Source of the DNA: Fimbriimonadaceae bacterium
Lineage (GTDB): Bacteria; Armatimonadota; Fimbriimonadia; Fimbriimonadales; Fimbriimonadaceae
Reading direction: 5' to 3'
Assembly (NCBI GenBank): GCA_026129685.1
Contig: JAHCHO010000001.1
Span: forward strand, 372,001-436,000
Length of the DNA: 64,000 nucleotides
Shown: piece by piece, positions 29,794-34,449 of the stretch
Numbering within the stretch: the first letter of the stretch is position 1
How the letters are laid out: every line of letters starts with the position of its first letter
Translations under genes and position numbers: made by a program
The notes under the pieces: generated by a model
Databases searched by the model: none
Seen by the model: the letters and a program-made list of their open reading frames with translations, nothing else
What the model was told of the DNA's origin: nothing

Positions 29794-30492
29794 TCAGTCC
29801 ATGCGCAGCTCGCCGCCGAACGCCCTCAGGTAGATCATCGCCGTCGCCATCCAGATCACCGGGTAGGTGAAGAGCAAGCCGACCAGGCAACAGAAGGCGC
29901 CCACGACCTGCAGGAAACCAAGCGCGAGGATGAACAACGACATCGCCAGCCACTCCGACTTGAGCGCGTTCACGCTTTCCATGATCGCCTTGAAGGGGTC
30001 CGTCTGGCCCGCGACGATCCTCGGAACCGCGAGGCTGAACAAAGCGGTCAGAACCAGGCCGGGAAAGCAACAGGCGAGGGTGCCCATCGTCGTCGCGACC
30101 GTCGTGATCACCGCCACGATCAGGAGCGGCACGATCCGGTGCGTCACCGCCAGCATGTCCGTCAGTCGAATCGCCCGGCCGGACAACTTCATCAGCGCTA
30201 ACCGGGTCAGACCGGCCGACACCAGGGTGCCGATGACCATGCTCAGGACCTTGAGCCAGAGACCGACTCCGACCAGAGCCAAGATGCCGGTGATGCCGAT
30301 CGGGCCGGGGATTCCCGTCCAAGGCGTATCCCCTTTGCCGTCGAAGCGCAGGTCGAAGCCGTTTGGGACCCCCGCCAGGAACAGGCCGATGAACGCCGCC
30401 GGCACCCAGACGTTCAGGTCTTCCTTGACCTTGGTCCAAGCGTCGCCGATGGTTTCAAATTGAACGAGAGGAGCCGAAAGAGGATCGCGCAT
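29794..30492 (-). CDS. Polytopic membrane protein of unknown function
   Basis: 232 residues with about five membrane segments (VWVPAAFIGLFLAGV; ILALVGVGLWLKVLSMVIGT; LLIVAVITTVATTMGTLACC; WLAMSLFILALGFLQVVGAF; LVGLLFTYPVIWMATAMIYL). The layout resembles DUF975 or glycerophosphodiesterase-type membrane domains. The ATG at 30492 starts a plausible cytoplasmic N-terminus; a longer frame to 30561 is Arg/His-rich. Confidence 0.68.
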   Translation of the reverse strand: MRDPLSAPLVQFETIGDAWTKVKEDLNVWVPAAFIGLFLAGVPNGFDLRFDGKGDTPWTGIPGPIGITGILALVGVGLWLKVLSMVIGTLVSAGLTRLALMKLSGRAIRLTDMLAVTHRIVPLLIVAVITTVATTMGTLACCFPGLVLTALFSLAVPRIVAGQTDPFKAIMESVNALKSEWLAMSLFILALGFLQVVGAFCCLVGLLFTYPVIWMATAMIYLRAFGGELRMD

Positions 30493-30635
30493 ATCGTGGC
30501 CGTGCCTTCTGCACCGAACAGGATAGGGCCATTTCTGTCCAAGGACCGCCCTTAGGCCCATAGCCGGGCTCTTGTTTCCCTCTCCGTCTACAGGGGTGCG
30601 AGCCGGTGCGACGTTATGCCGGTTCGAGAAAGGCG

Positions 30636-31185
30636 ATGGACGTCCAGTTGCACGAGCTTCCGCTCCGCGAGGCGTTGCACCTGGAAGGGCGCCCCTTGTG
30701 TCGGCTTGCCGAAGAGCACCGGCGGCTACGGATCGCCGCCTTGTTCACCGAGGGCGTCAACGACGTCGGTTGGAGAGCGCGCATGCGAGAGGGCGGACTC
30801 TGTCGTTGCCATGCCCGCCTGATGCTCGAACAGGGCGACCCCCTGGCCCTCTCCATCGTGGCCGCCGACCTCGTCGCGACGCGGCGCGAACCCTTCGATC
30901 GGCGCGTCTTGGCATGTTGGCTTTGCGAACAGGACTCGGCCGACGAGTCGTCGCTCGTAGGCACGCTGGCCTCGGCGCTTCGCCCTCTCCCACGCCGCCG
31001 CGCTCGCCAAGAAGCTCGCGCCCGCGACCCGGACCTGGTTCGAGCAGATCGAACAGGACCGCCTGGCCGCGCTACAGGAGCAGTTGGCCGCTTCGATCCG
31101 ACACTTCGACCATCGCGACCAAACGCCCTGGGGCGAAGAGCGCGGCAGTTGGGAACGGGCTCTGCTCAAGGTGAGCGACCGTTGA
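30636..31185 (+). pseudogene. DUF6062-like protein, frameshifted
   Basis: The frame from the ATG at 30636 encodes MDVQLHELPLREALHLEGRP, then CRLAEEHRR, LFTEGVNDVGW, GLCRCHARLMLEQGDPLALS and ACWLCEQ, matching what I recall of the Cys-rich DUF6062 family (C-x-x-C, VND, F/LC-x-x-H). From about 30961-30990 the sensible sequence moves to the +1 frame: RRFALSHAAALAKKLAPATR, FEQIEQDRLAALQEQL and ERALLKVSDR, ending at TGA 31183-31185. The original frame becomes Arg/Pro-rich shadow. One indel therefore breaks the gene; it may be real decay or a sequencing error. Zn binding is likely for the family. Function unknown. Confidence 0.6.
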
Positions 31186-31195
31186 GGCCCGCCGC

Positions 31196-31573
31196 GTGCT
31201 GACGTGGTTCTGTCCCTACTGCTGGGCGGAAATCGGCGAGCGGGACGAGCGTTGCGGCCATTGCGGCGAATCGCTCGCGGAGTACGGGAACCTGCCCTAT
31301 GCCGACAAACAGATGCTCGCCTTGCGTTGCCCGACCACGCCGACGCGAGCGAGCGCGATCACCAATCTCGGCAGGATGCGCCATTACGCGGCGACCGAAA
31401 CCTTGTCCCGAATCCTCGACGAGGAAGAAGACGTGTCGCTCCTTGCGGCCGCCCTCGAGGCGCTACGCGACATTGGAAACGACGATGCCCGGGATCGCCT
31501 GCTCAGGGCCGCCGACCGACACGGCAGTCCGGTCGTTCGCCGCATAGCCCGGTCCTTGCTCGAGGCTACTTGA
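31196..31573 (+). CDS. Zinc-ribbon and HEAT-repeat protein
   Basis: 125 residues from GTG 31196. The N-terminus FCPYCWAEIGERDERCGHCG is a four-Cys zinc ribbon. The rest holds two or three HEAT-like helical pairs (RASAITNLGRMRHYAATETL; DVSLLAAALEALRDIGNDDA; SPVVRRIARSLLEA), a combination suited to protein interaction. It lies 10 nt after the frameshifted DUF6062-like gene and overlaps the convergent universal stress gene by 8 nt. Role unknown. Confidence 0.75.
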   Translation: MLTWFCPYCWAEIGERDERCGHCGESLAEYGNLPYADKQMLALRCPTTPTRASAITNLGRMRHYAATETLSRILDEEEDVSLLAAALEALRDIGNDDARDRLLRAADRHGSPVVRRIARSLLEAT

Positions 31574-31988
31574 CGACGAGGGTGCTACAGGGTGCGTGCA
31601 TCACGAGGGCGCTCGTCGTGCTGCCGAAGAGCCGCTCCGAAATCGCGGAATGGCCGTGGTAACCGAGCACCAGCAGGTCGAACCCGCCCTCCACGGCGAA
31701 GCGAACGATCGCGTCCACCTCGTGCCCAACCGACAAATGGGTCGCGATTTCGATCCCCTGCTCGCGGGCATATTCCTCGGCCTCCCTGAGCACAGACCCG
31801 AAGTAGCGGTCGCTGCGCTGCTTGACGTCGTCGAGTTCGATCAGGGTCTCGGCATACTTGGGCAGGTCCTCCTGAACGCAGAGGACGTGCAACGAACCAC
31901 CCGTTGCTTTCGCGAGTTCGACCGAGACGCGATGCGCGCGGCGCGCCCCGTCCGAACCGTCGTGAGCCAACAGAATCTTCTTGAACAC
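31566..31988 (-). CDS. Universal stress protein (UspA family)
   Basis: 140 residues. KKILLAHDGSDGARRAHRVS is the N-terminal nucleotide-binding strand and loop, and GYHGHSAISERLFGSTTSAL fits the ATP-binding pattern G-x2-G-x9-G-S/T. It is last in the fluoride-riboswitch operon, 3 nt after the remains of the antiporter gene. UspA genes are known companions of fluoride riboswitches. Confidence 0.92.
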   Translation of the reverse strand: MFKKILLAHDGSDGARRAHRVSVELAKATGGSLHVLCVQEDLPKYAETLIELDDVKQRSDRYFGSVLREAEEYAREQGIEIATHLSVGHEVDAIVRFAVEGGFDLLVLGYHGHSAISERLFGSTTSALVMHAPCSTLVVK

Positions 31989-31991
31989 GGG

Positions 31992-33140
31992 CTAAGCCTC
32001 CTGAGTGCCCGCCCCAACGTCCGACGGGCGGGGACGGAAAAAGCCTTGGGCGATCATCGTGGGCACCACCGCGCTCCCGATGACCACCGATACCAGGACG
32101 GTGTACTGCTGTTGCGTGATGTACTTGTGGGTGAGCCCGAACAGCGCCGAGATCGTGCCAAAGGTCAGACCGGTCGCCATCAGGAGAGTGGTGTATGAAC
32201 TGACCCGGTGGTCCATCTTGAAAGCGCGACACACCGGATAGGTCCCGAGGCACTTGGCCGCCAGCTTCACCGCGAGCAACGCCAGCGTGAGGGAGAGCCC
32301 GGACCAAGTGGCAAGGATGGGCAACGACACATAGCTGCCCGCCTTCAAAAAGTAGAAAGGCGTCAACAACCGTGAACACCGTCGACCTCATGTTGCCGAC
32401 GATGTCGCGATGCTGTTCCAGCACCTAGGCCACCACGAGTCCCAAGAGGTAGGCGGTCAGGACGGCTTCGGAGTTGGCCTGGGCCGCAAGGCCCCCTAAA
32501 AAGAAAAGGAGCAGGAAGATCAGCTTGATCTCTGGCTGGCTCACATGGTCGCCGAACCGTCCGAAAAACCAGCGGGTGAAGCGGGGAGTCACGATCAGAA
32601 CGCCGGAGGTCACGATGGCGAACAGGGCCAGCCAAACGTTCGCGTTGGCAAAAAGCACGCCCAGGGCCAAGACGGTGCCCAGGTCTGTGACGAAACAAGC
32701 GGCCAGGATGACCTTGCCCAGTTCGGTTCGGTTGAGCCCGGACTCGATCATCACCGCGTAGACCACCGCCACCGACGTGGTCGACAGCGCGATCCCACAG
32801 ATCTTCGCCCCCTCCGAGGACCAACCGGCGACGTGCTGGGCGAACGCCCACGCCCCCAGAAACGGCAGCAGAAACGACACGAAACCGATCGCCAGAACCG
32901 GACGCCAATGTCGGCGCATCGTCCCCGCCTCGATCTCCGCTCCCGCCAAAACGTGAGCATGACGCTTCCAAGTCCGGCGAGGAAGGTCACCCACTCCGTC
33001 ACATCGAGGTGAAAGACGTTGCCGCCGATCACGCCAAACAGAATCTCCGTCAAGGCGACCGACACCGCAAAGCGAATCGAAACGATCGACGCGCCAAGGG
33101 CCAGCGCCATCCAAAGCGCGGCGGTCAACCACTGGTTCAC
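31992..33140 (-). pseudogene. Na+/H+ antiporter (CPA2/KefB-like), broken
   Basis: Three reading frames together make a ~380-residue cation/proton antiporter membrane domain. Segment A from GTG 33140: LGASIVSIRFAVSVALTEIL, FGVIGGNVFHLDVTEWVTFL. Segment B: LAGAEIEAGTMRRHWRPVL, SSEGAKICGIALSTTSVAVV, ILAACFVTDLGTVLALGVL. Segment C: LTPFYFLKAGSYVSLPIL, MDHRVSSYTTLLMATGLTFG. Lesions: a missing base in the AAAA run at 32948-32951 (T4 on the coding strand), an in-frame TAG at 32425-32427 after LLGLVVA, and an extra base near 32364-32371. The GTG start overlaps the cytidylate-kinase-like stop. One lesion is homopolymeric and could be a sequencing error; the other two are not. Confidence 0.82.
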
Positions 33141-33700
33141 GGAACGCCCCGCGCGAGGGCGACGAGGAGGTCGGTCGTACCCTCGATTCCGAGGCGAGAC
33201 GCCGCGATCGTCGCATCGTACTGTAACGGGTCCGTCCAGTCCAGATCGAAGAACCGGCGATGGTACGCGATGCGATGGGCGTCGCTCTCCCGAATGATCG
33301 CCTTGGCGCGATCCTCGCTCACCCACCGGACCTCCATCACGCGCCGAATCCTGAACGGCATATCGGCGATGAGGCGGACGTGCAACGCACCCTGCTCGCG
33401 CAGCAGAAACCCGGCGCCCCGGCCGACGAGCACGACGTTCCCTTCTTCGGCGACGCGCAAGACGACCCGACGCAACGCCCCGAAGAACCGCTCTGCGTTC
33501 TCGGAAGCGAACCACCGGTCCGTCCACCGGGGGGCTCGCTCGTCGTGCGCGGCCACTTCCGGCAACGGCGCCCCCAAGTCCGCCGCCTCACGATCGAGAA
33601 ACTCGCGGTCGAGCAACCTCCAGCCGAGCCTTTGGGCCACGACCGGCGCGATGGTCGTCTCGCCGGCGCCGATCTGTCTGCTGATGGCGAGGGTGCCCAT
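33137..33700 (-). CDS. Cytidylate kinase-like protein
   Basis: 187 residues. ISRQIGAGETTIAPVVAQRL is a P-loop-like start in which the canonical GxGKG/T-type Lys is replaced by Glu (GAGETT), as often in the Cytidylate_kin2 family. NVVLVGRGAGFLL and LIADMPFRIRRVM follow the family pattern. Its substrate is unknown. It is third in the fluoride operon, 6 nt after DUF190, and overlaps the antiporter pseudogene (GTGA). Confidence 0.82.
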   Translation of the reverse strand: MGTLAISRQIGAGETTIAPVVAQRLGWRLLDREFLDREAADLGAPLPEVAAHDERAPRWTDRWFASENAERFFGALRRVVLRVAEEGNVVLVGRGAGFLLREQGALHVRLIADMPFRIRRVMEVRWVSEDRAKAIIRESDAHRIAYHRRFFDLDWTDPLQYDATIAASRLGIEGTTDLLVALARGVP

Positions 33701-33706
33701 CGCGCG

Positions 33707-34057
33707 TCACCTCCGGGGGTCGTCGTGTGCGTGGACATACCGTTCCACGTTGACCTCCCACGTCACGACGAGGCCCTCGCTGACCATCGAATCCAACTGG
33801 GACAGCAGGAGGTCCACCCGTTCGTCCACGTCGAACACCTGGATCACCACCGGCAAGTCCTCTGACAGACGCAGAATTGCGGTCGTGTGGATGCGGCTGT
33901 TCGCGCCGAAGCCCATGATCCCGCGCGTCACGGTCGCTCCCGCGAGCCCGAGTTCCCGGGCCTTCTCCACGATCGCCGCGTAGAGCGGACGGCCCCGCCA
34001 TTGATCGGTCTCGCCGATGTAGATCGCGAGCGCCTTTGCCCGACCTTCGATCTTCAC
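33707..34057 (-). CDS. DUF190 (PII-like) protein
   Basis: 116 residues. LAIYIGETDQWRGRPLYAAI, VEKARELGLAGATVTRGIMG and FGANSRIHTTAILRLSEDLP are hallmarks of DUF190, a small ferredoxin-like/PII-like fold. VIQVFDVDERVDLLLSQLD continues the pattern. The GTG start at 34057 overlaps the crcB stop (GTGA). DUF190 (COG1993) is a known companion of crcB and fluoride riboswitches; it may sense a ligand or regulate the channel. Confidence 0.92.
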   Translation of the reverse strand: MKIEGRAKALAIYIGETDQWRGRPLYAAIVEKARELGLAGATVTRGIMGFGANSRIHTTAILRLSEDLPVVIQVFDVDERVDLLLSQLDSMVSEGLVVTWEVNVERYVHAHDDPRR

Positions 34058-34449
34058 GTCACACCTCCGAGAAGCAGCCTGGAGGTCACCAAACCGAGCC
34101 ACGCGCCCACCACCGTCAGCACCGCCGTACCCTCGACGTACAGCAACAGCGGCAGGTAACGACCGTCGCCCAACATGGCCACCGCCTCGTACGCGAAGGT
34201 CGAGTAGGTGGTGTAGCCGCCGAAGACGCCGATCGCGAGGAACAGCCGCCAGTTGGGCGACCAATCGAGGCCGGCGAAAAGACCCATGAACAAACCGATC
34301 GCGAGCGAACCCGTGACGTTGATGAACATCGTCTGCCACGGGAAGGCTCCGCCGGTCCGATCCTGAATCCAACCGCCGAGCCAATAGCGGACGTTGGCTC
34401 CGAGGAACCCGCCCGAACCCACCAGTGCGATCTTCGTGATCGTTTCCAT
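34054..34449 (-). CDS. crcB: Fluoride channel CrcB/FluC
   Basis: 131 residues with four membrane segments, exporting fluoride as a dual-topology dimer. Family motifs: GGFLGANVRYWL, the Na+-site and pore region FINVTGSLAIGLFMG, and GVFGGYTTYSTFAYEA, which carries the Phe-box and Thr/Ser track. The start MET at 34449 is just after the riboswitch; the open frame running to 34521 is riboswitch sequence, not protein. First gene of the operon. Confidence 0.97.
   Translation of the reverse strand: METITKIALVGSGGFLGANVRYWLGGWIQDRTGGAFPWQTMFINVTGSLAIGLFMGLFAGLDWSPNWRLFLAIGVFGGYTTYSTFAYEAVAMLGDGRYLPLLLYVEGTAVLTVVGAWLGLVTSRLLLGGVT

Follow-up and report, generated by a model that had tools for sequence, protein, structure and literature searches.

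The window, which is the whole 64,000-nucleotide stretch of DNA that was analysed, belongs to a genome of 3.94 Mb in 18 contigs, estimated to be 99% complete. It holds a fluoride-related operon on the minus strand, with the order riboswitch, crcB, DUF190, cytidylate-kinase-like gene, antiporter and uspA. At the head of the operon, directly upstream of crcB, lies a degenerate fluoride riboswitch aptamer (RF01734, 34454-34523). The crcB gene itself, encoding a Fluc fluoride channel, is intact (34054-34449), with a PF02537 match of 91.5 bits and a TIGR00494 score above the equivalog cutoff (84.1 versus 80.45 bits). The GTG start of the DUF190 (COG1993) gene (33707-34057; PF02641, 129.5 bits) overlaps the crcB stop. 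Further downstream is the cytidylate-kinase-like gene (Cytidylate_kin2, 33137-33700; PF13189, 140.6 bits), whose stop is overlapped in turn by the GTG start, at 33140, of a CPA2-type antiporter pseudogene (31992-33140). The last gene, uspA-like, occupies 31566-31988 and is matched by PF00582 over 1-141/141 at 107.7 bits. Read from the sequence, the few-base overlaps at crcB/DUF190 and kinase/antiporter make the arrangement resemble a translationally coupled operon. Convergent to it, on the plus strand, are an intact zinc-ribbon/HEAT-repeat gene (31196-31573; PF13646) and the remnant of a DUF6062 gene (30636-31185; PF19538 on its N-terminal piece). The crcB, DUF190, kinase-like and Usp genes are all open, with normal coding GC3. 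A foreign insertion marked by GC content was considered and rejected, the profile being flat at about 0.60-0.67.

The antiporter reads in one frame from the GTG (NQWLTA...SVMLTF) as far as a TTTT run, past which the homology continues one frame over (LAGAEIEA...). Reading the gene against its nearest intact relative, L008, we located three disabling lesions, which class it as a pseudogene. The T run at 32948-32951, T4 on the minus strand, is short of one base. A TAG, arising by substitution, stands where L008 has a serine (32425-32427, CTA on the plus strand). Lastly, one base is extra near 32364-32371 (minus strand GTTCACGGTTGTTGACGCC), which brings the reading back into the N-terminal frame; the first and last pieces thus share one frame. 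The profile PF00999 picks up the gene in two parts, along with a TAG (64.5 and 29.7 bits; cutoff 26.2), and in a search of Armatimonadota the L008 protein matches it as three adjacent fragments with 80, 79 and 82% identity. The sequence-only reading had placed two frameshifts and a stop at these same positions, and the comparison with L008 and the fragment matches agree on all three. Since 309 of 381 residues are identical to the 392-residue L008 protein in an end-to-end alignment of all the pieces, and each piece keeps a coding GC3 of 0.81-0.83, as in the neighbouring genes, chance similarity is excluded. Translation would leave the original frame near codon 64, at the first frameshift; from there the next stop in the list of open reading frames, at 32751, gives a product of about 129 residues, which leaves no complete transporter.

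A comparison with relatives, which the sequence-only reading had proposed, did yield an intact gene. The L008 orthologue, from a metagenome-assembled genome labelled Armatimonadota, is one continuous frame in which the lesions are absent, and it scores 116.8 bits against PF00999, above the cutoff. Its neighbours are a fluoride riboswitch, a kinase-like gene, a Usp gene and an enolase gene. An antiporter is absent from two genomes of the same genus as the source (G001 and G002), neither of which aligned to the window region, and a member of the same family (G010) keeps the riboswitch, crcB, DUF190 and kinase genes without the antiporter. Rescue by a paralogue was also considered and set aside: the source genome has two intact PF00999 genes on other contigs, and neither was retrieved by the antiporter query.

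Damage at the locus extends to the aptamer, which falls below the RF01734 gathering score (27.8 versus 34 bits; E 6.9e-6). The reversed Watson-Crick pair A6-U38 of the fluoride aptamer has been described (PMC11586693), as has probing of the B. cereus fluoride aptamer (PMC10687018). Both positions of this pair are C in the window, the substitutions being A6 to C and U38 to C, and are A and U in all 31 compared aptamers, a set that contains one or more pairs taken from a single sequence and in which the four aptamers missed or misread by the pattern script at A6, and the one at U38, were read by eye. With these changes the window aptamer may have lost fluoride sensing, and fluoride-gated expression would then be lost or altered too.

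The DUF6062 gene is frameshifted near 30975 and lacks about 16 codons relative to L007; its remnant gives two matches in different frames with the proteins of L007, L009, L011 and L175. DUF6062 genes lie downstream of fluoride riboswitches in L007, L009, L011 and G026, with the HEAT gene adjoining in G026, and a homologue of the zinc-ribbon/HEAT-repeat gene stands beside a fluoride riboswitch in L175/G026. Given these associations elsewhere, the window copies look like part of the same island, of which the DUF6062 remnant is likely a second pseudogene. A search of 30300-30700 at E up to 5 gave no second fluoride riboswitch upstream of DUF6062. The description of an otherwise intact operon in the sequence-only reading therefore stands for the four other genes, all open, and fails for the sub-threshold riboswitch and the adjoining convergent DUF6062 gene, which is also frameshifted.

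To place the loss in a wider context, we compared the distributions of the antiporter and of CrcB across 291 Armatimonadota genomes, comprising 29 that bear the antiporter besides the window and 261 that do not. CrcB occurs in 4 of the 29 and in 161 of the 261 (p 6.5e-7). Counting any CLC protein alongside CrcB, whether of the fluoride type or not, gives 6/29 against 214/261, so that neither is found in 23 of the antiporter-bearing genomes versus 47 of the others (p 4e-11). The difference persists when only high-quality genomes are counted (CrcB in 1/18 versus 124/175; p 6e-8) and when the data are collapsed to genera (p 0.0017), these statistics carrying no formal phylogenetic correction. Six families (f1, f5, f31, f32, f35 and f42) contain some members with only the antiporter and others with only CrcB. 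Among 40 relatives the antiporter subfamily is present in four, three without CrcB (G022, G026 and G030) and one with it (G028). Seven of the eight genomes with the closest antiporter homologues lack CrcB; that of L008 carries it elsewhere. A fluoride riboswitch above the gathering score was found at 23 of the 29 Armatimonadota antiporter loci. Outside the phylum, 22 of 50 antiporter genomes also carry CrcB, and several loci there have crcB, DUF190 and the antiporter side by side.

Two Armatimonadota genomes with neither CrcB nor a CLC protein, G188 and G189, have broken antiporters. In G188 (L205) the antiporter is cut off after about 173 residues and followed by the apparent end of a Usp gene, an apparent internal deletion; the G189 copy (L204) is split into two fragments that overlap, and carries a TAG and a TAA. 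G008, a further member of the source family, has neither CrcB nor the antiporter; at its locus L174 (4559-5911) a fluoride riboswitch stands at the head of a stretch that includes a CLC-type transporter, which would give the one family a third option for the exporter.

We considered whether the lesions could be consensus mistakes over a gene that is intact in the cell. Two of the three are single-base indels, one of them in a T run, and the frameshifted DUF6062 gene only 1.4 kb away could mean a locally poor stretch. The amino-acid sequence across the lesions also shows normal constraint. At columns at least 95% conserved among 81 intact homologues, the window mismatches 1 of 104, compared with a family mean of 1.4% and 3 of 106 for L008; a relative-rate test of the window against L008 was not significant with any outgroup, and the pair differ by a dN of 0.13 and a dS of about 1.55. 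The remnant thus has no excess change at conserved columns, a test of low power for a young pseudogene, and with no relaxed constraint detectable the choice is between a very recent decay and lesions that are errors. Against the latter, the window and 20 other stretches of the source genome (456 kb in all) were scanned for reading frame with a three-periodic Markov model, which flagged few breaks; read by eye, about two of those lying outside the window seem to be true frameshifts. This background of about two in roughly 390 kb, or about one frameshift per 200 kb, is a lower bound, the scan being blind to in-frame stops and to frame breaks at places where a stop and a start also fall; at such a rate, two or more frameshifts in 1.15 kb have a probability of order 1e-5, so a uniform error rate does not explain why a single gene of that length should carry two indels as well as a nonsense codon. 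The 49 ABC-transporter domain matches in the source genome are all free of stops and breaks, and this survey and the scan together rule out a generally poor assembly. Moreover, the TAG is a substitution, the DUF6062 gene is also short by its missing codons, and the aptamer substitutions fall at invariant sites. Error, which had to be excluded at the homopolymeric lesion in particular, is therefore unlikely, and the normal constraint up to the lesions instead points to a recent loss. Of the two frameshifts read outside the window, one is in a hydrolase-like gene that changes frame mid-gene at about 6609 of L135 (G000:C1, about 358609), a probable frameshift or error, and the other is a probable mid-gene frameshift at about 14931 of L140 (G000:C11, about 314931). 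A working protein might also be made from the broken gene by programmed frameshifting with stop readthrough, or from split subunits by re-initiation; the shared frame of the first and last pieces and start-like codons near the piece boundaries are compatible with this. Such a scheme would need three separate events, however, and 81 of the 84 retrieved homologues are single open frames of at least 340 residues, as are nearly all Armatimonadota copies in being single frames, which makes recoding highly improbable.

If the lesions are real, their cause may be sought either in CrcB or in the habitat. We favour the view, at a probability of roughly two in three, that the CPA2-family antiporter gene at 31992-33140 was truly inactivated, and recently so, in a partly decaying fluoride-defence operon, its loss tolerated through CrcB. 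Under this model CrcB would have taken over fluoride efflux in the lineage, leaving the antiporter unneeded and loss-of-function mutations tolerated. The alternative is that the whole island decays since fluoride no longer matters in the habitat. Damage to the aptamer and to DUF6062 besides the antiporter fits that account, as do G188 and G189, where the antiporter broke in genomes without CrcB or CLC; yet CrcB, DUF190, the kinase-like gene and Usp are still open with normal GC3, and CrcB is retained in most of the family, so we regard disuse as a serious but doubtful explanation. Returning to tolerated loss through CrcB, the pairing of a decayed antiporter with an intact CrcB, as the sequence-only reading had it, is borne out by the lesions and by the crcB profile matches. 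Its further suggestion that fluoride export is redundant is partly supported: the rarity of CrcB among antiporter-bearing Armatimonadota and its absence from most genomes with the closest homologues provide statistical support, with clear exceptions in the genomes elsewhere that carry both and in G188 and G189; the published view is that such antiporters serve pH homeostasis. The loss looks like the replacement of one fluoride defence by another.

The pseudogene is ordinary; the complementarity with CrcB is the interesting part. We speculate, tentatively, that the riboswitch-linked CPA2 antiporter itself removes fluoride, standing in for CrcB and CLC-F, and is not a mere accessory of pH homeostasis. 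The idea draws on the excess of antiporter genomes with neither CrcB nor CLC and on the families of mixed membership. If true, the window catches the hand-over, in a CrcB-bearing lineage from which the antiporter has only just been lost. The pH-homeostasis role of riboswitch-controlled Na+/H+ antiporters in fluoride loci has been assigned by association, and the near-complementary distribution across the phylum, together with a loss beside an intact CrcB, makes fluoride removal by the antiporter directly testable.

Na+/H+ antiporters are the next commonest riboswitch-associated genes after exporters and have been linked to pH homeostasis (review, PMC11139923); a literature search of a limited collection found no papers on DUF190 with fluoride riboswitches or linking cation proton antiporters to fluoride resistance. 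The L008 orthologue resembles CPA2 monovalent cation:proton antiporters of the KefB/NapA kind, aligning over residues 18-357 to the Na+/H+ antiporter chain 4bwz, and falls outside the CPA2 subfamily TIGR00932 (94 bits, under the cutoff of 238.3). Unlike NapA-type proteins, the subfamily aligns Thr-Asp (70/81, and in the window) or Asn-Asp (11/81) to the Asp-Asp (IDD) of 4bwz. The second Asp of the pair is kept in all 81 members, and 76 of 81 have Lys or Arg in the TPFYFxKAG stretch. As read from the alignment, these residue changes would fit altered ion coupling and say nothing certain about substrate. The window operon, headed by a riboswitch remnant, is like the fluoride-riboswitch-associated Na+/H+ antiporter loci already described (PMC11139923), and differs from them in that its antiporter is a pseudogene and its aptamer degenerate. 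With the CrcB/Fluc operons of G010 and G028 it shares crcB and DUF190 behind a fluoride riboswitch; unlike CrcB/Fluc operons, it continues past this pair with a kinase-like gene, a broken antiporter and a Usp gene.
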